Part shown: positions 7,939 to 38,175 of the stretch, in pieces
Layout: every line of letters starts with the position of its first letter
Position numbering within the stretch: the first letter of the stretch is position 1
Origin: Mya arenaria
Taxonomy: Eukaryota; Mollusca; Bivalvia; Myida; Myidae
Length of the DNA stretch: 64,000 nucleotides
Assembly: GCF_026914265.1 (NCBI RefSeq)
Contig: NC_069124.1
Location: 15,025,088 to 15,089,087, forward strand
Direction of reading: 5' to 3'
Program-made: the position numbers and the translations under genes
The notes under the pieces: model-generated
The model's database searches: none
Told to the model about the DNA's origin: nothing
What the model saw: only the letters and a program-made list of their open reading frames with translations

Positions 7939-10506
7939 TCAAGGGTGGAGAAAGTTTGTAAACAGCGCCTGGAGGATCTGTTGTCGGTTCTTTCTGGTTG
8001 ACTTCTTAGCCAGAGATCGGTTCTTACGGTCCATCCAACTCGACGGAAGTTGGAATCTAGAAGGTTCGTTTCCAGCGTCCCTTTGACGGCGGACCGTCGA
8101 CAGGGAGCCAGTTGTGGGTATACTGAGCGGCATGCTTTCCGTTGTTGTTGATGAGTTTTCATGAAGTGCCATCATTAGCTATATTGTTAAACGGAAAAGA
8201 AACATTACCAAATGTGTATATGCCACTGTATAAATAATCAAATGATTATAACCATGTTTTTGCAATAACTAGTTGTTATTACAGTTTAGATAAACAGTTG
8301 TCACAGAATAAAATTAAACGCATTATAACTGTCAATAGTGTTTCGAAGGTTATTTACAAAAGATGGTTCTAAAATAGTTTTTCTTTCAGAGGGGTTAAAG
8401 AAAAAGGCATGACATCATTGGCGAGAACATGATCATCAACAACATTTTAATGAATTTATTCAAACAACCCTATTCCTTATCCAATGTCACAATGTGAATT
8501 ACTAAATCAGCATTTGGTTCGTCAAACGTATCCTTCCCATTTTATGAAATCACCAAAGTTTCTGATCGTATAATATTTACGTATTGCAGTGAATCAATTC
8601 TCGTCCAAAGAAGTAAAATAATTATCTAATTGGGCCCATTTAATATCAATGATGCGCAATCCAAGTGGGCCCATTTAATATCAATGATGCGCAATCTAAG
8701 TGAGCCCGTTTAATCTCAATGATGCGCAATCCAAGTGGGCCCGTTTAATCTCAATGATGCGCAATCCAAGTGGGCCCATTTAATATCAATGATGCGCAAT
8801 CTAAGTGAGCCCGTTTAATCTCAATGATGCGCAATCCAAGTGGGCCCATTTAATATCAATGATGCGCAATCTAAGTGAGCCCGTTTAATCTCAATGATGC
8901 GCAATCCAAGTGGGCCCATTTAATATCAATGATGCGCAATCCAAGTGGGCCCATTTAATATCAATGATGCGCAATCCAGGTGGGCCCGTTTAATCTCAAT
9001 GATGCGCAATCTAAGTGAGCCCGTTTACTTTCAATGATGCGCAATCCAAGTGGGCCCATTTAATATCAATGATGCGCAATCCAAGTGGGCCCGTTTAATA
9101 TAAATGATGCGCAATCCAAGTGGGCCCATTTAATATCAATGAAGCGCAATCCAAGTGGGCCCATTTAATATCAATGATGGCAAGTGTGCCCATTTAATAT
9201 CAATGATGTGCAATCCAAGTGGGCCCGTTTAATATCAATGATGCGCAATCCAAGTGGGCCCGTTTAATATCAATGATGCACAATCCAAGTGGGCCCGTTA
9301 AATATAAATGATGTGCAATCCAAGTGGGCCCGTTTAATATCAATGATGCGCAATCCAAGTGAGCCCGTTTAATATCAATGATGCGCAATCCAAGTGAGCC
9401 CGTTTAATCTCAATGATGCGCAATCCAAGTGAGCCCATTTAATATCAATGATGCGCAATCTAAGTGAGCCCGTTTAATATCAATGATGCGCAATCTAAGT
9501 GAGCCCGTTTACTTTCAATGATGCGCAATCCAAGTGGGCCCATTTAATATCAATGATGCGCAATCCAAGTGGGCCCGTTTAATATAAATGATGCGCAATC
9601 CAAGTGGGCCCATTTAATATCAATGAAGCGCAATCCAAGTGGGCCCATTTAATATCAATGATGGCAAGTGTGCCCATTTAATATCAATGATGTGCAATCC
9701 AAGTGGGCCCGTTTAATATCAATGATGCGCAATCCAAGTGGGCCCGTTTAATATCAATGATGCGCAATCCAAGTGCGCCCGTTTAATATCAATGAAGCGC
9801 AATCCTAGTGGGCCCGTTTAATATCAATGTTGCTCAATCCAAGTGGGCCCATTTAATATCAATGATGCGCAATCCAGGTGAGCCCGTTTAATATCAATGA
9901 TGCGCAATCCAAGTGCGCCCGTTTAATATCAATGATGCGCAATCCAAGTGAGCCCGTTTAATATCAATGATGCGCAATCCAAGTGCGCCCGTTTAATATC
10001 AATGATGCGCAATCCAAGTGGGCCCGTTTAATATCAATAATGCGCAATTCTAATCATATTCAACTTCGTTGATGACATGTGGCTGAGGTTCAGTATTACC
10101 AAGATTTAAAATAGATATACACACAACACAACAACAACAACAACATAATATACAAATGCAATAAAATATGATCCATTAACAAAATATCTTACCTGTGCAA
10201 GAAATGTCCATCTGGTGACGAAGATAAGAATCCCATACGCGGAGATGATCAGGGTAAGGTGAAGGTAACGTCTTTTGTATTGCATCCTTGGTCTGGTGTC
10301 TGTACACAAAATAGTTCTCAAACGATTTCAAGCACCACTGGTAACTCCTTATTCCGTTTAAACCAGTGCTGATATTGCTTTTTATCGATTGGATTTACTT
10401 ACCACTCAATGATCTTTTATTCACCGAAACACAAATGGACTTGTTCACGTCGTGTTGAACGTCAACGCAATGATTACACTTTCTTTGAAAACTATATTTA
10501 TCCGAA
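7939..10506 (-). CDS. Unrecognised single-pass membrane protein, 5' end unresolved
   Basis: Three minus-strand exons join in one frame with matching phases: 10506-10403 (phase 2 in, phase 1 out, donor GTAAGT), 10299-10193 (acceptor TGTGTACAG, donor GTAAGA) and 8178-7939 (acceptor AATATAG, stop TGA). The product has a short ectodomain with KCNHCVDVQHD and one more Cys, a membrane segment (YLHLTLIISAYGILIFV) and a basic Ser/Thr-rich tail of about 80 residues ending ILQALFTNFLHP. I recognise no family. The exon with the start codon is not certain: an ATG at 10592 opens a hydrophobic, signal-like frame contiguous with the first exon, but a TAA at 10515-10517 separates them. The gene is either spliced from a further exon upstream, or this allele is broken. 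The large intron is full of satellite. Confidence 0.55.
8387..8591 (+). repeat. Direct repeat, copy 2: second 3' end of SPATA18-like gene
   Basis: Second copy of the 7174-7378 segment. Here the homology begins just after TTTTTCTT, so the copy starts with a convincing splice acceptor (TTTTTCTTTCAG) followed by the final codons and stop. No upstream + strand exon is visible within about 200 bases. It lies inside the large intron of the minus-strand membrane-protein gene, directly before the satellite. Confidence 0.8.
8630..10048. repeat. 35-bp satellite array, about 40 copies
   Basis: Tandem units of 35 bases sharing GGGCCCATTTAATATCAATG and the block ATGCGCAATCCAAGT. Variants alternate GGGCCC with GAGCCC and CATTT with CGTTT. 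A truncated 29-base unit (GATGGCAAGTGTGCCC) occurs twice, near 9178 and 9662. A segment of about 14 units starting near 9010 recurs at an offset of 484 bases (14 x 35 minus 6), showing a higher-order duplication. The array lies in the 8179-10192 intron of the minus-strand membrane-protein gene. Confidence 0.95.
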
Positions 10507-20500: not shown

Positions 20501-23500
20501 ACTAAAAGATTTTAAATGTAAAAATAGGTTACACATTTTTTGCTTAACTTGAAGTGATGACTTCCGAAGCATATGATTGTACATGCATATTTTCATGTAC
20601 ATAGCTTATGCATTATCATATGAAAGCTCTCAAAGTCTTGATTGGCCTATTACTGCAAATAATGAAGCTTAAAATCATCATGTTAGTATTGCATATATTA
20701 ATGTATTAATATTTTTAAGATGTTATTTTTGAAAATTACTAAATTTAAACCTAGTTATGAATTATGTTGGGATTTGGACCTAATTTTACTGCTATCAATT
20801 ATGGGAGATCATTAATTGATAATCGATTGTTTTCAGGCTCGTATAAACACTTCACTCTTTTCATTTTTGTTTCATTATTTTATAACTTCAAATAACTTCA
20901 TTTCCTAACTTGTCTGTTGTGTTATTTTTGTTTATCTAGCAATTATTGAATCATATATATATTTTTTAAATGTTTTATTTAATAATAATTTTTTTAATCA
21001 ATTATCAATTGTGAAAAAAACTGCTATCGATAGTGACCAATATTGACCTTTTGGATCGATTTTCGAGTACAGTTGAACCTCAGAACAACACAAGTTTTAA
21101 ACTTGTCAAGCTTTCAATTGTTTCATGGTTTCAGGTTCAAGTACTAGTCCAAACGACGGAGGAATATCTGCCAAAGAGGCTTTAAGGACAATCATCCGAA
21201 AATCGGGCTCTGAATCAGACCCAGTGGACTTAAGCACATCCGATTCCAAGGAGAATGGCTTTAGTTTTTATAACACCATGAACAGTGATCCTCTGATGAA
21301 CCTTGGTTTACTAGGCTCCAAAACCAGTGACCTTGAAAGTTCAAATGATGTGCCAAAAGTGATTAAGAAAGGTGGTTTGACTAGGAGTACGTCTGAAAGT
21401 GGTGTTGCTAAAAAGATTAAAGACAGCAAAGCTGCAGAAATGATGGATAGAATTATTCATGAAAATGATGACGATGTGTTTGCAATATCAAAATCTACAG
21501 AAACATTGACTTCTGATTCCATTAAGAAGCAAAAGATGTTTGAAAATGCGAGGGACATATTTTCCGACTCTGAAACTGTGGAAGCTAAAGCTAGTCCCAG
21601 TAAGGTCAAAGTTGATGAGAGAAAGGTCAAACATACACACAAAAGGTCAAGGTCAGACATAATTGGAATAAAAACATCTGTGATACAAAGTGATTTACAT
21701 AATGTGGAAGAAGTTAAAGGCAATCATAGTAACAATGGAAATACAGGTAATTATTGCACAACTTATACAAGTATGGACTGTAATTACATCATTGTATTAA
21801 CAATTATAGACTTGTGACCTGTGATATTAATGAAGATAATATATTACAGTCTATATTACACTTGCTGACTCCCCATGTGATACTTTTCATCCAATCAAAA
21901 CTGCCTTTACATACACAAACGGTACATGTACCAGTATATAATATTAAATTGATATCTCTCTGATACAAATTTCAATACAATGATCTTGTTAGTTATATTG
22001 ACTTTTAAAGCCTTTCATCTTTTTTGTGTTTTCAAATAATGATTTTTGAATTTAAACAATAAATAATTTTTACACTTGTATCATGTAAAGAATGTTTTGG
22101 TTTCTTAAATCTAAATGTCATATAATATAAAGATATGATTGCCACTACCTATTGATATGTTTTACTTCTGTTCCATATCACAATATCGATATGTATTGGT
22201 ACATCCTTTGTCAAGATATGGGTACATGTTTGCCACTATTAATATTTTATTGAAACATGTACCTGAACATACTGTTTTATGTAAACAATTTATTTTCAGA
22301 CCAACCAGATGGCCGTGTAGCAGGAGGGGGTGGGGGTGGGGGGTATTTTTCCCCTCCCGTCCCAGGACAGTCACTGCTTCACTACCTCTCCCAGCAGGAC
22401 TTTCATACTTGTGCCAACCTGGAAAAGGTATATAGTCCTTTGTGCCACTACCACCTGTTGCAGCATTTTACACTGTATAGTTTTGCTGGGATGGTTCAAC
22501 TCCCGATTGAAAACAATGATATCAAGATTCAAACTATCCAGAAATGGATTTATAGTCTCATACTGAGTTCAAGTCTTTGTAGCAATTTTGGTGTAAAATA
22601 TTTTAAAAACCTTTTTCACCAAAAGGTATATGGGAGAATATCTGATCACATCTATCATTCTGTGTACAGTACATGTTTTAAGCTTTATGTGATTCTTAAG
22701 TTTGGTGCTACTGTGACCTTTGCCTGGATGTGGATCAAAATGTTGTACCATTTCATGTATATGAAATAAATTGTATTTAACATTTTTTTGATAAAACTGA
22801 AACAACCTAATGTCATTTTGAGCTTCTTGTGATGTACCTTACAATAAACATGTGTTTCTTATGTGCTCTTAATGCTTTCATTACGCATTTACAAAGCTAC
22901 GTACGTTTTTGCATGAAGTAATACAAGACTTCAGATCTGGTAAAAAATGTTTTATTGATACACATTTACTCTGTCAATCAATTCAGAGTGTAGTTATTTT
23001 CTTTGCTTTCAGTTGACTTAAATATCTTGCCATGATGTGATACCCACTTGGTTGCACAGAAGGCCAAGTACATGTTAGATAGGGATGATAGAATTGAGGT
23101 TTAATTCTAAATTAAGGATTGAGACCTTTCTATTTTAGACTTCTCTTATAGGTTATGTTTGTTTTTGAAGATTCATGAACTATATGGATATAAATGGCAA
23201 ACACCTTCAAAAGGAAGTCTGAGGAAGGCAGGAAGACTGAGGAAGGCAGGAAGTCTGAGGAATGCAAAAAGTCTGAGGAAGGCAGGAAGTCTGAGTCCCT
23301 TTGTGCCTGAACCAATCATACCGGTACTTAAAACATTTTTTCATGATTTACAGGATGAGGTCTGTTATCCTGTGCTAGCTTTAACCAGTAAAGATGCAGA
23401 GATAAATGTACAAAGTTTGTTACAGGAGAATGCACACTTCAGCATATCGGAGGCGTTGATAGCAGCAATCGAACAGATGAAGTGGAACCATCTGATTGGT

Positions 23501-26500
23501 ACGGGGGAGGGGAGTGTGCAGCTGGAAGAGCCGGATGATAGTGATGAGGAAATCAAACAGCTACAGCAGAGAATACGCATACGAAAACGACAAAAACTCA
23601 AAGAGGTGGGAGTACTACTAAAGTTGTGGACTCTTCATGTTTAGTTGTGGGAATTCAAATACAACATTGCATCGTGCGTTTTCCTCTGTTGTTTTATTTT
23701 TATCGGTCTCCATAGTAAATGAAAACAAACATTTGGAGGTCTAGTGTCTGTTAATTTTGTCAGAATTAGTACTTCAGAGGATAAGTCTAATTTCAGCCAG
23801 AAATAAAATGATTCCCATTTAAGTAATTTCTCAAAGGTTAATGCTTTGTTTCAAGATAATTAGATTAATTATATACCGTGTACCCACAGTAGATATAGAT
23901 GTACATTTTTAATACATAACATGTATGTATAGAGCTTATATGTACTGTTTTTTGCAGAAAGCAAGAGGTTTCCCGATACTAAGTGATGGACGTACAGATA
24001 GTAAGTTTTTAAACACATAATGTTTCTTTATAGCTATTGTATTTATTTATAAATGTACATACTATCATTTTCATTGTTGTTTGGAAATTAATGTTGTGGA
24101 CATTTAAGTTATAAAAAGCATGCATGTCTTAAAACTTTGCACTGTCATCATTTCACATGTTCAAGTTGTAAAAAAATGTTTTAAGCAGAGAAAAGCCAGT
24201 AAAAATTGTGTCTTGTACTTATTATAAAGATAAACAGAGGGTTCTATAGTTCAGGATTAATCCTGAAGTCACTGGATTGAGAACGTTTAACTTCAAACTA
24301 TCATACAGTTGTGAAGATTGTTTTTTTTGCTTGGACATTTCCATCAAAAACAGTAAAAAGTACCTTGAAATTAATATATTAAAAGAGTAAAAGCCACCTT
24401 ACACTGCTTTGGACATGAACCCCTCATACACAGAATTTTTTTCAGGGTTGTTAAAAATCCTGGTTAAAGAGTTCTGCATGCTTTCATAAGGTTCCTATTT
24501 TACTTTAAAGTTCATGTAGTAGTCTTGATTGTAAGAAACTAGAAATTTTTAAAGGTAATCAAGTACTTTTATTATAAATCATAATTTCTTGTCAACTTAT
24601 GGATAAGAGCAGTTGGATATTTTGAATGTTGTTTGTGTGTTGTACAGCTGGCACGAGTCCCAGTCAGTCAGCATCCCCGTTCTCCTCCCCACACGACAGC
24701 GAATACTCAGGTATGCATGCTCACATATTCTGTATCAATATTGTATGCTACAGGCACTGTTTAAGCACTCAATTTGCCTTTGTTTGATGTAAATGGCATC
24801 CTGGTGAGTTACATTTACAACTACAATTTTGAAAATTGAGATTCTGCACTAGTGCTATGAACAGCTGTCGTCATTATTGGATAAAGGTATGAAGCTTGGA
24901 ATGTGGAAAAAGCTCAATATTGACCGCTGTGCAAATAAATGGTAATACAATGAACAATCCCACACTGGGGTATTTTTTGCATGTAAGTGTTTCTATATAT
25001 TTTATGAATGTCCCTGTATCACTTCCTACATGAATTTGTAGTTTAAAGAGTTCAGTGTAGAAAGTTGCATCTCAAAACCATTCCTAGTAGAATGTTGCAT
25101 CCCAAAAACATTCCTGGTAGAAAGATGCATCCCAAAAACATTCCTGGAAGAAAGTTGCATCCCAAAACCATTTCTAGTAGAAAGCTGCATCCCAAAACCA
25201 TTCCTAGTAGAAAGTTGCATCCCAAAAACATTCCTGGTAGAAAGTTGCAGCCCAAAAAAATTCCTGGTAGAAAGTTACAGCCTAAAAACCTTTTTGGTAG
25301 AAATTTGCATCCGAATAACATTCCTTGTAGCAAGTTACATCCCAAAAACATCCCTGGAAGAAAGTTACATCTCAAAATCATTCCTTGTAAAAAGTTGCAG
25401 CCCAAAAACATTTTTGTTAGAAAGTTGAAGCCCAAAAACATTCTGGGAAGAAAGTTGCATCCCTAAAGTTAATAAAAAAATATCTGTTTAGCAAAGTTTG
25501 ATAACAGAGAAAGCATTTAGTTCAGATCAAAACATTTTAAAGTACATGAGTAGTGCTGTTGTGCAGCTTTAGGCGTCTCGTAACTAATACAGTAAATGTC
25601 CTATTTGATGTCTGGGCGCTTGTCTTTTAAGAACTGTGTTCTCTAAATAGTACCATTTTCCGCCTTCAGCAAACTTCATAAAATAGCCGAATTTGAGAAA
25701 TCAGTCATGTATGGAGCCATTAATATTAAATTACGACTACATTTGTCACAATTACCCATCACTTAGATTGTTGAGGGAGTCAAAATCCTGCAACTGACCA
25801 ATCAGCTTGTACTATCTACAACAGCATCACTGGTGTGTGAATCAATAAAATGGTCCACTGAACATTTGGCTTCAATATATCATTTGGCAAGAATGAGAAT
25901 TATTTTGCTCTTTTGTCAACATAAATGGTGTGTAACCTTATTTGTATGATAGGGTATAGGTTTAAATGCATGAGCCTGAGCCAATGTGTGCTGGTAATGG
26001 GAACTTATAGCATTTTTTCAAATTCAAATAACAGAATCTAAATGAAGTCCAACAAAAAATACCCCCTGTCCGTCTTTAACGAAATGTGCTTCTAATAGGA
26101 CATTAACAGTATATGGAATTTGGATGCCGGGTGATCCCATATCATTTTGGTATCATTTGAAAGGGTTTTGAGTGGAAACAAAAATACTAAAGGTATTGAA
26201 TCAAGAATTGTTCTTGGCTTTCAGAGATTGCAAAATAGGTCATTTTACATCTGATTTCAGTTGAAATAAAGAGCATTAACTGTGAAAGCTGTGATGTACC
26301 TTGGAAATTTATTTTACATATTAGTAAATACCTTTCATATGACAACAAAATTATATAGGGTCACAAGGAATTAAAATTTAACATTAAGATCAATGGAGCT
26401 ATTAGAGAATTTATAAGTGGGATTCCTTAAATATTTGGAGGGATTAAAGATGCATGCCTATATACATATTCACTGAGTATGTGCTGTTCACCTGCTTATG

Positions 26501-32500: not shown

Positions 32501-35500
32501 GATACATTTAACATATCATTATTTAACACTTTCTAAAATGTTTGTTTATATTTTACGGCACCTGCTGACACAATACAAACAATAACAAGATAAAAAAAAT
32601 CAGGTACCTGTATATTGTTATGCGATGAATTGTGTTTCGAACATATCCGAAGATGTTACGTTCATCGATTGATAAACACAATTGCTAAAAGGCAGTTCAT
32701 TTAAGGAATGAAAGTTGAGGTGTAAATGTTGAATAATTCATTTAAATCATCTATCAATAAAACAGACAGTATCACTATATATCTTATTTCAGGAGAAATT
32801 CAGTGCTGGTGAAACAGAACTACAGATGTACAGGTTGTGGAATGAAAGTGGAACCTGGTAATTATTGCACTCTCTGGCTACTGCACCAATTAAGGAATTC
32901 ATTTCATGTTTCTACCAAACAACATTCATACCTTATAGGTTAATCTGCCAGTCAAAGAAAATGTTCCAAATTTGCCAGTCTAAAAAATCATTTCGCAAGT
33001 GCCTGTGAAAAGAAATTATTCAAATAGTTCTATGTCTGCCTGTCAAAAAAAAATGCTTCCAAAGCACCTGTCAAAGAAATAGTTCCAAATCTGTGTTCCA
33101 AATCTGCTGTCAAAGAAATAGTTCCAAATGTGCATGTCAAAGAAATTGTTCCAAATGTGCGTGTCAAAGAAATTGTTTAATGTACCTAATTGTAACAGCT
33201 CCAAGGTGCGTAAATATCATTTAAAATGATGAATTGTGCCATAGAATTTTAACCAATTAAAACATCGTTCTAATTGATTGGCATGTGTATAGGAGAAATC
33301 ATATTAATAAATTTAATTTTGAACAGTGGAGTATTGTAATTTAAGTAATTAAGGCAGGGTTTACTTCCCTCGACAGTACTATATATGCTATTCATTGGCA
33401 CTTGTCATATCTTTTCAATCGATAAGCAACTTCCTCAGACTTCATTTCTTTTGATACTCGCAGTTGAAGTGTTTTAATCATAATTAGTAAATACTCTTTG
33501 CAGTTGTAAATTAATGATTGAAGCAGACTGTTATCCAAATTTATATTGCCATTTTTGTAGCTTTGTGTTGGTTAGTTATGTACATAACCTTATTTTTTAC
33601 TTGTCTAATCGCAAAATTCTTGTTCTTTTTTATTACAGGTTATGCAAAAAGATACAGATACTGTGAATATTTAGGGAAATATTTCTGCCAGTGTTGTCAT
33701 AGTAACCAATTATCTGTGATTCCTGCAAAAGTGCTGCACAAATGGGACTTCACCAAATATTATGTGTCAAACTTTGCCTATGACTTTCTTGCAAAGATGG
33801 GTGAAGAGCCATTATTTAACTTATCAGACATAAACCCCATGTTGTATAAGAAGACAAAGTTTCTGGTGCAGATAAAGGGCTGGCGGACACAGCTAGCGTC
33901 ACTACAGTCACTTCTTGGACTATGCAAACTGGCCAAAAGGTGAGAGGTCTAATCTCATCACCTCAGTCGATACGAAGCAAGAGGTTGACTTACAAGCATT
34001 ACTCATTTTATTGCCCTTTATTGCATTAGAAAACTAAAAAGTATATCAGAAATCTTAATCATTGAAAGACATTTATCATTAAATAATAGCAGGTTTGTAT
34101 TTCAGAAAGTGCAAACTTGCGTTTCTTTCTCCATGATTAGTGGTTATACTCCTGGATGTAGATCTCATTTAGAAGAATATACAGTAACTTTAAGTCATTA
34201 TCTCAGTAATAAACATTTATATAGATATATATACCAATATATATCATTTATATGAATATTTTGTCGCCTGCAAAGCATGGCAGATACATAGGGATTAATT
34301 TATCTTCTTGCGTTGTCTGCATCCACATCATTTGTTTCCAATTAATAGCTTTTAGTGTCTTTAAATGTATATTGGTCAAGGTCAGTAGATGGTCACCCTG
34401 TTGATTTTTGGCTTTGTAGGTCAAAGGTCATGCTCAAGGTGGCATTTGCACTCCGCACAGCTGACGCATCCATTTAAATGAATTCTAGTTTGTATCTGTC
34501 TTGTGTGCAGTCTTTCAAAGATGATTGTCAAACTTCTCAAAACACTTTGTTAGATAAATAATAGTTCTTATAACAATGTTGTTTACAGTCTTTCAGGGAA
34601 GATTATCAAGCTCCCCAGCCATTGGCTAGAGGATGTTCATGTGTACTCTCTCAACGACCTCATATCAGTAAGTGAATGGTAAACAGTCCATATTTTTTTT
34701 AATTTACATATTGTTCATCCCAGGAACCCCAAAAGGAACTTTTTTTTAGTGGGACCCTATAAATTTACCAGGGCCCCCTATTTGTCAGCCATCAGAGTCC
34801 AAGGACATTAGCTTAAAATTCTTAGGGAAACTTTGCTATGTACATGTTGTGTCATAGAATGAAATATGATGTTTTCAATGCCAATTATTTCTGTAAATAT
34901 CAATCACGGTCGATAATGTGTCTGAATTGGATTTTCAATGCTTGAAATCATGTCATTATATAATTCTTGAATGTGGAATACATAATATAAGACACATTTC
35001 TGCAGGTGAAGGCAGGTGTTTCAGGCCACGTCTACAGCAACATGAAAAACCTGGCCAGTGAGTGTATCAACCATGTGCAACATTGCCAGGTATGAGTTTA
35101 ATCCCATAATGAAGACTATATTACCAGGACTGATATCAACATGGACCTAAATTGTTAACTCCTATAACCATGTGCAACATTGCCAGGTATGAGTTTAATC
35201 CCATAATGAAGACTATATTACCAGGACTGATATCAACATGGACCTAAATTGTTAACTCCTATAACCATGTGCAACATTTGCCAGGTATTAGTTTAATCCC
35301 GTAGCGATGACTATTTTGCAAGGTCTCAACATGGACTTAAAATGTTAACTCATATAACCATGTGCACCATTGCCAGGTATTTATCTTGACCAAGAAGCTT
35401 AATCCTGTTACCATGTGCAACATTGTCAGGTATTAACATGGGCCTAGAAGCTTAATCCCTTAACAATGTGCAACATTGCCAGGTATTAACATTGGCCTAG

Positions 35501-38175
35501 AAGCTTAATTCCTTAACCATGTGCAACATTGCCAGATATTAACATGGGCCTAGAAGCTTAATCCTGTAACCATGTGTGCAACATTGCCAGGTATTAACAT
35601 GAGCCTAGAAGCTTATTCCCTTAACCATGTGCAACATTGCGAGGTATTATCATGGGCCTAGAAGCTTAATCCCTTAACCATGTGCAACATTGCCAGGTAT
35701 TAACATGGGCCTAGAAGCTTAATCCTGTAACCATGTGCAACATTGCCAGGTATTAACATGGGCCTAGAAGAAAAATCCTGAAACTTCCTGCAGCATTGCC
35801 TGTTATTAACATTGGCCTAGAAGTTCTATGCTATACTACCCCTTGCATGACCGTATTCGATTAATACCAATCTTAAAATCCACCACTGAGGCAATGAATG
35901 TGGAATTCCAGATTTTTTACAGACTTTTTACAACCCTGAATCTGTTGCCATGTGTATATGCTTTATGCTTTATCCATTCCTTAAAAATGAATTCCTGTAA
36001 TAATAATTGTAGCTCCTGTCATAAATCTGCGTAATTTTACTATTTTCTGAACAGGAGCAAAAATAGGTTAATCTAATTGATAACAATAAAATAATATGTA
36101 TGTTGTTCAACACATAACTGGTATACATATCATGGCAGTATTTCCATTAGTGTAGGGACATATTTTCCCAATACTCTTATACATGTAACTGGTAAGTTCA
36201 TCTGTACCATAAGATTGATTTGAAATGCAACATGATTTGTAAATATTCTAACAAAGGTATCACTGTTTCACTATCGTTTTAAGTTCTGCCATGGGTTTGG
36301 TTTCATCTGTGAGGTGTGCCGTAACCAGGATGACATTCTGTTCCCCTACCAACTGGAGACCGTCTGCATATGTCAGGGTATGGTGATCTACAACTTTCTT
36401 TACTTATTTTTTTGGTATTCTGGTAAATGACTTATTTTTATAGAAGTTTATTTTTTCCAACATCTGCTATGTAAAAGAGTTTACATATTTTGTATAGAAG
36501 GTAGAGAGAGTTGAGTAGATAAATATAATTTTTTCAGTAGGTTTAGTGTCAACATATAATTTCTAAGCAGAGCATTGATTGCAATTTTAACAACTTAGCA
36601 TGATCCTAAATGGAAGTCACTTGGCAATTTATTGGCTTGAATTGAGTTGCATCAAAAATTTTGCTTAAAATAAAGACTGTGAAATAATGCCTTCAAATAT
36701 CTAAGATTACTTGTGTAAAACTACTATGTCTAAAATTCTTAGTCACAATCAATCTCTTACCAAATGATCTGCCTTGACGAACAAAGAAGATATCTGCCAC
36801 CACATACCAAATATAGAATTTTCAATTTTTTTATTTTTTTTATTTTGTAGATTTCCTTTTTCTCTTTTAAATCTGTGAAATATTGAATTTTCATATCTTA
36901 TGGTCAAGATACGTCTTAGTATTCTTTCAAGAGGATAAATATGGTTGAATGATTTTGATTATCTTCACATGAAATGCATGGTGGCAATAATAACTGTACT
37001 ACAAAGGGAAGTCAAGGCTGATTACAGTTTGACTTACAGTGTATTGTAACCATATATTGATGTGTCAATTTACAGGCTGCAAGTCCTGCTTCCACAAGTC
37101 CTGCTATGTGCCACAAAAATGTCCGAAGTGTGCCAGAATAGAGGCAAGGTGGTAAACTTGAAAATAAAGAACATATACACTTGTTTGCTTCTTTGATATA
37201 TATAATGAAGATTTTATTTCATCGAGTGATTATCATAATACTTGATTCTACATATGACACTGTTTTGATGCTCACTTGGTGAAATTTTGGTCCTTGAGAT
37301 GAAAAATATTCTTGTTTTAAGACTTGATTGTTGTTTTTAAGGAAAAATAGTTGAAATAGCATTAGTTTCAATGTTGGTGGCATCAGCGACACCATCAGCA
37401 CGCAAAACCTTTGCCAAACTATAAAACTTTCATTGATAGGATATTGACATGAACCTTTTATGGTACATAATGTTGCAAGAGACAATAAGCATATGCAGTA
37501 ATGCACATTGCTGTCCCAGTATTCATACAACATCTGGAGTAATAACTTATGCTAACTTAAATCAATTTTTTTTTTTGTAGTTTGAGTTTTTTTGTCATAA
37601 ATTTGATTATTTTAAATAAAGACAATAAAGAATATTTCAAAAATTATCAAACATATTTATATTATATGATGTTTTATGAATATCATTCCTGATTTTATGT
37701 ATTGCTCCGGAAAACACAGAAAGAACACATCCAGACAAGTGAAGGCATTTTCAAACAGTGCCCTTCTGTAGCTTTGAACTTATTAAAGAACTCATTTAAA
37801 AACATAACATCTGAAAAGTGTGTCAAATCTGCTGGTAAAATATTATCATTTAGATTGTGACCACGATAGTAAGACAGAGTTTCATTGTGTAAGCTAATTT
37901 TGAGATAAGGGCATATAGTCTTTAGACTAGTCAACTACATGTAGCATTTTGTAGCTGAGAAATAATTTGTTTCTTGTCTTATATAAGCTAATTAATATAT
38001 TCATAAATCGAAGGACTTTATAAACAGAGCTTATCCCATACATATATCTATATACTGATATGATAATTCTGTAAATAACTATTGAAAGAGGTAATTTTAA
38101 TTCAGGCGCCAGCGCCTTCAAGAGGAAAGTTCAGAGGACTTGGATGAGCCTGCAGAGAGAACAGAAAACACATGA
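11593..38175 (+). CDS. RUBCN: Rubicon, RUN and Rubicon-homology autophagy regulator
   Basis: Twenty-two exons in consistent phase: 11593-11627, 14457-14613, 15310-15532, 17983-18089, 19080-19284, 21135-21746, 22300-22427, 23426-23605, 23958-24000, 24648-24710, 26517-26564, 28635-28709, 29164-29348, 30121-30186, 31651-31724, 32793-32857, 33639-33939, 34589-34667, 35006-35089, 36284-36377, 37076-37148, 38106-38175; 988 residues (human 972). RUN domain about 15-180 ([18 protein letters not shown], then [14 protein letters not shown]). The centre is Ser-rich with a Gly run. [19 protein letters not shown] and the [14 protein letters not shown] block match human Rubicon. The C-terminal Rubicon homology domain (about 735-967) keeps its zinc-type cysteines: [53 protein letters not shown]. 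In vertebrates Rubicon binds PI3KC3/UVRAG and Rab7 at endosomes and slows autophagosome maturation. Exon 8 could instead begin at 23354, adding 24 residues; 23426 is preferred because it reproduces the human LEK-ENAHFS junction. The exon 2 donor could also be 3 bases earlier. Confidence 0.95.
11942..12292 (+). mobile_element. tRNA-derived SINE
   Basis: It begins with a tRNA-like head: A-box-like TGGCCTAGTGGTTATGCATC and B-box-like GTCGTGGGTTCCAAG, about 40 bases apart. A body follows with AGCTCCCTTGCCTGGCGCTC and ends near AAATACATACATTAAC. Target duplications were not resolved. It lies in Rubicon intron 1. A 112-codon open frame across it is incidental. Confidence 0.65.
12443..13027. mobile_element. 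Inverted-repeat element, CAGTCAATTGTAACCA family, copy 1
   Basis: The ends are inverted copies: CAGTCAATTGTAACCACTCC at left and GTGGTTACAATTGACTG at right, continuing into C-rich runs and CCAGGTaCaGGGaatag / ggacctgg blocks. The interior (AAGGCCCATTCCCTGG, AATGCCCCTGCACCCC) matches the copy at 39288-39607. It is interrupted by another element at 12586-12829. No coding capacity. Rubicon intron 1. Confidence 0.75.
12586..12829. mobile_element. Small MITE nested in the 12443-13027 element
   Basis: Ends CAGGGTTT and AAACCCTG are inverted, with CTCGCAAA / TTTGCGAG just inside. The flanking host bases AAACT occur on both sides, a 5-base target duplication. CAGGG ends are hAT-like, but hAT elements usually make 8-base duplications, so the superfamily is uncertain. 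Repeated GCGAGTT motifs fill the interior. Confidence 0.65.
13215..13480 (-). mobile_element. End fragment of a Helitron-like tandem-core repeat
   Basis: TTTTTAGTCCCCCGCCACAG begins a block with CTGTCTGTC-type runs and then AAGGTCAAGGTCAC motifs. The C-rich end plus GTCTGTC run plus core recurs in other orientation at 50653-51141 and 49945-49996. It is probably a reversed, truncated member of that group. Rubicon intron 1. Confidence 0.4.
15995..16560. repeat. Degenerate tandem repeat, units of about 130-170 bp
   Basis: Four or more diverged units share AAATTTAGTCAGAATGTGT, AACCAGTCATAT and CTTTGTCCAATCA-like blocks. Spacing between the AATGTGT blocks is about 160, 140 and 150 bases. It resembles the cores of the tandem-core elements elsewhere in the window, but no ends were recognised. 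Rubicon intron 3. Confidence 0.6.
18214..18866 (+). mobile_element. TTAA-type MITE, copy 3, split by a SINE
   Basis: The most complete copy of this family. It starts TTAAAGTGACACTCTTA and ends GTAAGAGTTCATCTTTAA, with TTAA on both sides. Without the 249-base SINE and one copy of its target site it is about 393 bases long. It shares ACCGCTTTTAATGCTCATTT and GGTATCCTTCATAAGAACC with the other copies. Rubicon intron 4. Confidence 0.75.
18491..18739 (-). mobile_element. tRNA-derived SINE with 11-bp target duplication
   Basis: Read on the minus strand, the head has an A box (TTAGCGCAGTGGTTAGCGCA) and a B box (GGTTTGATTCCCGG), then CCGGGTTCTCCGGTTTCCCC and a tail near AAATAAATATGTTTAAAC. The host duplication TTTCAAATTTA flanks it at 18480-18490 and 18740-18750. 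The central block resembles conserved domains shared by SINEs of marine invertebrates, but I cannot name the subfamily. The perfect duplication points to a recent insertion. Confidence 0.9.
22322..22347 (+). repeat. Glycine-encoding G run in Rubicon exon 7
   Basis: A run of GGG/GGT codons gives seven glycines ([11 protein letters not shown]) near residue 455 of Rubicon, in the low-complexity middle region. It is likely length-variable and prone to sequencing error, yet the exon keeps the expected phase on both sides. Confidence 0.85.
23213..23298. repeat. Short 18-bp tandem repeat
   Basis: About five units of AGGAAGTCTGAGGAAGGC with substitutions. It lies in Rubicon intron 7, about 55 bases before a possible alternative exon 8 start. 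The 18-base period keeps a reading frame open, which is incidental. Confidence 0.85.
25052..25466. repeat. 30-bp minisatellite, about 14 copies
   Basis: Units share GTAGAAAGTTGCATCCCAAA followed by AACATTCCTG. Because 30 is a multiple of three and the units lack stops, long frames stay open on both strands ([10 protein letters not shown] repeats on +, [10 protein letters not shown] repeats on -). It lies wholly in Rubicon intron 10 with no splice sites that would make it coding. Confidence 0.9.
27985..28117. repeat. Inverted repeat / hairpin, arms about 40 bp
   Basis: The left arm holds GACTGCCATGAGGGTGACA...TTGTCAACCT; the right arm holds AGGTTGACAATTCGTCACCC then TCAAGGCAGTTGAT. The arms pair with a few mismatches around a loop of about 55 bases. 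It could be a small foldback MITE or a transcribed hairpin. Rubicon intron 11. Confidence 0.7.
29655..29905. mobile_element. hAT-like MITE, 251 bp
   Basis: Inverted ends CAGGGCTGGTATTCATAAGA and, on the right, TTTTATGAATACCAGCCCTG, with CTTAAG blocks just inside. No transposase. The CAGGG start fits hAT-type elements. A clear target duplication was not found. Rubicon intron 13. Confidence 0.85.
30385..31497 (-). mobile_element. Helentron/HINE- or pearl-like element with tandem core
   Basis: Reversed member of the family at 47170-48462. The left end TTTTTAGCTCGACTATTC and the right end GTAGTCGAGCGCGCTGTC then GGCTCTTGTTA match that element's two ends in reverse complement. Between them lie four to five units of about 175 bases sharing GTTAAAGTTTTAGGGCAAGT and TTATGGCCCCTGATTGAC. 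Subterminal inverted repeats plus a tandem core fit the HINE/pearl description in bivalves. Rubicon intron 14. Confidence 0.65.
32182..32287. repeat. Inverted repeat with 32-bp arms and 42-base loop
   Basis: The left arm 32182-32213 contains AGTAAGGAATTGCGGGATTG and ATGTCATTAT; the right arm 32256-32287 contains ATAATGACATCAGTCCCGTA then ATTCATTACTTA. The arms pair almost fully with few mismatches. No target duplication seen. Rubicon intron 15. Confidence 0.75.
32945..33185. repeat. Degenerate minisatellite, about 27-bp units
   Basis: Repeated variants of GTCAAAGAAATAGTTCCAAA separated by TGTGC or CTGCC spacers, seven or eight copies, the last ones best preserved. Rubicon intron 16, between exons encoding the two halves of the first cysteine cluster. 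Confidence 0.75.
35071..35825. repeat. Tandem array that includes the Rubicon exon 19 splice donor
   Basis: The unit begins with the last 19 bases of exon 19 plus its donor (CCATGTGCAACATTGCCAG|G) and repeats through the following intron. Copies start near 35071 (real exon), 35168, 35264, 35358, 35410, 35464, 35517, 35570, 35625, 35678 and 35730, with a worn one near 35785. The first units are about 96 bases, later ones about 53. Most copies retain CAG|GTATTA or CAG|GTATGA. Confidence 0.9.

Follow-up and report, generated by a model that had tools for sequence, protein, structure and literature searches.

An array of exon-edge copies and splice donors in a Rubicon intron of the bivalve Mya arenaria

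The Rubicon exon and the array that follows it

We analysed a window of 64,000 nucleotides of the Mya arenaria genome (contig NC_069124.1, positions 15,025,088 to 15,089,087; coordinates below are those of the window). The exons read in its Rubicon gene were the five of the RH domain. Joined, they matched 210 residues of 6wcw_A, which we take to be the human protein, with an E value of 1.9e-69 (phmmer), bearing out the initial annotation of the gene as Rubicon. A search of the genome for the RH domain returned five matches in the Rubicon gene and one weak match on a different contig. One of the five exons (35006 to 35089, + strand) is 84 nt long, has phase 0 at both ends and comprises 28 codons ending in CINHVQHCQ. 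It is preceded by an intron of 338 nt (34668 to 35005, + strand; donor ATATCA/GTAAGT, acceptor TGCAG/GTGAAG, slashes marking splice sites) and followed by one of 1194 nt (35090 to 36283, + strand; acceptor TTTTAAG/TTCTGCC). The true donor of this second intron, GTATGA (35090 to 35095, + strand; CAG/GTATGAG), forms a phase-0 joint to the next exon at 36284. Across the 35089/36284 joint, the alignment of the joined protein to 6wcw is continuous, and the single gap between the joined exons and 6wcw, of three residues, falls within the 84-nt exon and away from its edge.

The downstream intron contains the array. The last 21 nt of the exon (AACCATGTGCAACATTGCCAG) and the GT donor recur tandemly in 11 further units reaching to about 35825, giving an array of 12 units in which u1 is the exon edge itself. 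The copying of exon edge and donor into the next intron, seen in the initial annotation, thus stands with 12 units delimited; its repeated 19-nt tail with about ten more copies was right as to the repetition, and the figures become 21 nt and 11 further units. Tandem Repeats Finder divides the region into 35069-35380 (period 97) and 35355-35823 (period 53). The repeated unit spans the exon-intron boundary, u1 consisting of 21 exon nt (35069 to 35089, + strand), the same as the start of u2, and of intron sequence. On the same strand, u2 (35166 to 35262) equals u1 over 97 nt and carries a decoy donor, CAG/GTATGAG, after 35186, and u3 (35263 to 35355), of 93 nt, has 87% identity to u1/u2 and carries the decoy CAG/GTATTAG after 35284. 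There follow eight units of 52-55 nt each (u4 to u11, 35356 to 35780, + strand), starting at 35356, 35409, 35462, 35515, 35568, 35623, 35676 and 35729, and a decayed last unit, u12 (35781 to 35825, + strand; CTG/TTATTA, no donor), whose end is uncertain. Aligned with the long unit, u4 to u11 lack about 44 nt downstream of the donor, and their consensus core is the exon tail plus GTAT.

The exact 21-mer is present in five units (u1, u2, u7, u10 and u11), and u3 and u8 deviate from it by insertions alone (1 and 2 nt, respectively). Outside the array, the best match listed on the + strand is 5 edits away, and on the - strand no match with 5 or fewer edits was listed. Given five exact occurrences and a best listed outside match at 5 edits, the recurrence of the 21-mer is beyond chance.

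We compared divergence between the core, defined as the 21 exon nt plus GTAT, and the spacer. Between u1 and u4-u11, 0-2 of 23-25 core positions and 4-10 of 23-30 spacer positions differ; taking u1 and u3 together against u4-u11, the differences number 0-2 in the core and 3-10 in the spacer. Among u5-u11 only, the contrast is not significant (permutation P 0.17; Fisher 0.096); with u4 included, Fisher gives 0.005, for units that are not independent. The lower core divergence between unit classes could indicate that decoys were retained by selection, or conversion. Conversion from a constrained exon would account for conservation of the core, as would chance.

Decoy donors and the consequence of their use

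To describe the decoys, we compared each with the true site, CAG/GTATGAGT. The u2 donor is identical to it. The remaining donors are CAG/GTATTAGT in u3, CAG/GTATTTAT in u4 (CAG/GTATTT), CAG/GTATTAAC in u5, u6, u8, u10 and u11 (CAG/GTATTA) and GAG/GTATTATC in u9 (GAG/GTATTA); u7 (CAG/ATATTA) and u12 lack the GT. The GT, as AG/GT, is therefore retained in 9 of the 11 intronic units and CAG/GTAT in 8, while CAG/GTATGA or CAG/GTATTA is found in 7, in agreement with the earlier statement that most copies keep one of these two forms. Among the decoys, +5G is present in u2 alone and missing from the other ten. The description of the array as a row of near-identical, equal donors consequently holds for u2, which equals the true donor, but not for the others, which are without +5G.

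Donor scores were calculated from general donor frequencies, and the remark on +5G likewise rests on the sequence together with those frequencies. On this scale the true site and u2 share a score of 4.39 and ranks 4-5 among the 204 GTs in 33641-37160. The u4 decoy scores 2.34 and the remaining scored decoys 0.88 or less. By the same frequencies, the other three true RH donors score 2.30, 1.64 and 6.68, so that u4 lies above the first two of these, and an unused GT at 36192 scores 6.66, above the true site. U1 duplex energy does not separate the donors, being -7.2 for 8 of the 12 units including the true site. The true donor at 36378 also reads GTATG.

Use of any of the 11 decoys would extend the exon by 97-713 nt; an exon ending at u2 would measure 181 nt and one ending at u3 279 nt. 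When the true donor is left unspliced, the TGA at 35093-35095 is in frame, and since every extended exon begins with this same TGA, all 11 meet it after CAG GTA, 29 codons from the exon start. The immediate in-frame stop predicted in the initial annotation thus holds for all 11 decoys, and use of a decoy would truncate the RH domain.

Interpretation of the array

The exon copy and the next exon together encode H-V-x-x-C-x-x-C, aligned with HVERCMLC of 6wcw. Because the exon's copy encodes residues in common with the Rubicon of 6wcw, sequence comparison gives good support to the view that the exon is the source and the intronic units are copies, the repeat having spread from exon to intron.

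Tandem duplications that resemble minisatellites and span exon-intron boundaries have been described as mirages in the globin genes and Adh3 of lancelets (PMC3087553), with PGBD5 and troponin C as further lancelet mirage genes (PMC3902484). According to PMC3087553, lancelet mirages have AG/GT in many but not all units, their number differs between haplotypes, and Adh3 data together with globin RT-PCR suggest that splicing at them is regular. The Rubicon array shares with the lancelet mirages (BflGb6, BflGb9, Adh3, PGBD5 and troponin C, as far as these two sources describe them) a tandem duplication across the exon-intron boundary, the keeping of AG/GT in many units and unit length, which is 10-160 bp in lancelets; donor-side copies occur also in lancelet BflGb9 and PGBD5. 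It differs in the animal, a bivalve, and in the gene, and has 11 further units as against 6 and 3 in two BflGb6 haplotypes. Both anatomical hallmarks of a mirage are present in Rubicon, namely a boundary-spanning unit and AG/GT in many, not all, units (9/11; CAG/GT in 8/11). Such an array is not unprecedented, given those in several lancelet genes (PMC3087553, PMC3902484), and the Rubicon array is most likely a new example of a known phenomenon rather than a new phenomenon. In the open-licence literature, searched mostly at the level of listings, such minisatellite arrays were found described only in lancelets, and within that same scope the Rubicon array may be the first mirage outside them.

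Related systems differ in other respects. The Rogers model, in the form cited in PMC3087553, likewise involves splice signals being copied by a tandem duplication over an intron-exon boundary; unlike in that model, no new intron is present in Rubicon, where homology shows an intact exon and an existing intron holds the array. Gain of an intron by tandem duplication was accordingly rejected, the exon being intact by homology to 6wcw and no new intron lying within a former exon. In a potato gene, there was a single duplication across the boundary. Human introns are reportedly derived from tandem arrays, as named in a reference title.

We consider it very probable that this is a mirage-type minisatellite of which the first donor is used and which is tolerated. 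A tandem duplication would have captured the last 21 nt of the Rubicon exon, the donor and the following intron sequence; the 97-nt and 53-nt forms of the unit would have arisen when about 44 nt were gained or lost, the short form then being amplified through slippage or unequal exchange. The identity of u1 and u2 may stem from conversion, or from 97 nt at the exon edge having been duplicated at a later stage. The short exon would be recognised across itself from the upstream 3' splice site, so that the nearest downstream donor wins, and all copies would be removed with the intron, which would allow the array to be tolerated. We infer both this order of events and the choice of donor, as we do neutrality: the array is most likely a neutral minisatellite. 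Tandem repeats, in 23 stretches merged by hand, account for 6375 of the 64000 bases in the window (about 10%), and it is therefore unsurprising that one should meet an exon edge.

With an exon of 84 nt between introns of 338 and 1194 nt, the first donor would be expected to win, provided that exon definition in this animal works as in the system in which the rule was established. Minigenes that offered a choice between two identical donors, with introns of 365 nt, showed a preference for the upstream one under exon definition, by cross-exon proximity (PMC9225289). How the first of many equal donors is chosen had been put forward as something that the array would test; for exon-defined exons this answer tested in minigenes exists (PMC9225289). 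Three points speak against the neutral first-donor reading. According to PMC9225289, the rule of Reed and Maniatis, which centres on the intron, prefers the downstream donor, and would here favour a downstream donor; the decoys are not clearly weaker than real donors of the gene; and between unit classes the core has diverged less than the spacer. The intact reading frame would fit an undisturbed regular mRNA.

An unlikely alternative is that decoy use is regulated or leaky, some transcripts using u2 or a later donor, stopping after 29 codons and undergoing nonsense-mediated decay, such that array length tunes the level of Rubicon. The match of u2 to the true donor over 97 nt, the GT in 9 of 11 decoys, the stop produced by all 11, the modest size of the exons that u2 or u3 would yield (just 181 and 279 nt) and the u4 score, above two true donors of the gene by the donor frequencies used, all fit this reading. 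Against it, 10 of the 11 decoys are missing +5G and two are missing the GT, downstream donors are disfavoured by the cross-exon proximity rule (PMC9225289), and the lancelet authors judged mirages harmless to splicing (PMC3087553, PMC3902484). We regard as very unlikely a bolder reading, in which gene conversion would keep supplying the array with the edge of the coding-constrained exon, so that the intronic donors would stay matched to the live one, and a length-variable row of decoys or ratchet points would set Rubicon output between individuals.

Zero-length recursive splice sites consist of an AG directly followed by a GT, and this juxtaposition is common to them and the Rubicon units. Recursive (ratchet) splicing, with an acceptor-like AG and a donor GT in each unit serving as zero-length exons, would remove the intron stepwise and give the same mRNA; we consider it very improbable. 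The AG/GT of 9 of the 11 intronic units is compatible with it, as are a yTnAy motif within 45 nt before the AG in 10 of 10 units from u2 to u11 and a pyrimidine fraction of 0.47-0.59 in these units, set beside 0.53 in three of the five true RH acceptors. However, nearly half of the CAG sites outside the array (399 of 830, 48%) have the motif as well, the units are not independent of one another, none has an outstanding pyrimidine tract, steps of 53 nt are very short and a 1.2-kb intron needs no ratchet. Compared with zero-length recursive sites, the Rubicon array has a short intron, no strong acceptor context and many tandem copies. We give as little credence to an assembly error, by which the pair of identical units u1 and u2 would be wrong, or else the unit count. 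The exact identity of u1 and u2 could point that way, and a mirage was mis-assembled in a draft genome (PMC3087553), but most of u3-u12 differ from one another, so that the array is not one repeated read, and the Mya arenaria assembly (1.22 Gb, 17 scaffolds) was built from long reads and polished, as described in PMC10663159.

If a mirage-type minisatellite is present in a bivalve, mirages are not confined to lancelets, and arrays of exon-edge copies may be a general feature of genomes rich in repeats. Since u1 and u2 do not differ at any of 97 nt, they furthermore offer a natural experiment on the rule by which the donor closest to the upstream 3' splice site prevails.

Searches elsewhere in the genome and other repeats

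The array was matched nowhere else in the genome (1,216,080,610 bases on 18 contigs; best candidates scored, very common words skipped), and a dispersed repeat is unsupported with, under the same search terms, a single locus matched. Using a test for self-matches at exon edges, we sampled 60 further loci of the same genome, comprising 30 myosin-head and 30 kinase matches (L014-L073), and found a multi-copy donor array in none of the 60, a small sample in which fewer than 60 loci truly test an exon edge, since in many kinase matches a single open frame covers the greater part of the domain. The Rubicon locus itself and one RH relative (L001-L013) were excluded from these 60; as a positive control, the 84-nt Rubicon exon was recovered by the same test. 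Self-matches occurred in 3 of the 60 loci, all at the edge: L022, L038 and L039. The self-match of L038 is stop-rich, A+T-rich sequence, and that of L039 has the same coordinates and identity. Three CAGGTR motifs within 400 nt formed one cluster, in L025, among 63 loci (462,266 bases, both strands), L074-L076 being counted for this motif alone.

In L022, 25 nt at a myosin-head exon edge (1652-1676) recur once more, at 88% identity, in the adjoining intron (1760-1784). Read by eye on the reverse strand, the repeat lies at the 5' edge of the exon and keeps the AG; it may be an acceptor-side mirage of two copies, or else what is left of an alternative exon.

Three other repeats of the window were noted. 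At 8624-10048, a 35-nt repeat is present in 41 copies with 91% matches. An 18-nt repeat at 23212-23295 lies within an open frame (SLRKAG-like repeats) that is perhaps a coding exon of Rubicon. At 25057-25467, a 30-nt repeat of 13.7 copies is open for 128 and 139 codons in two + frames and for 136 in a - frame.

Several exons occur twice on one contig with equal or near-equal scores (for example C3:84757807 and C3:85070549; C7 at about 46.6 and 60.8 Mb), reflecting either segmental duplication or haplotypes kept separate in the assembly. Kinase-domain matches with equal or near-equal scores lie in open frames of about 920-924 aa on C2, C7, C8, C11, C13, C14 and C16 and, judged from scores and frame lengths, resemble a kinase-bearing element dispersed in multiple copies.
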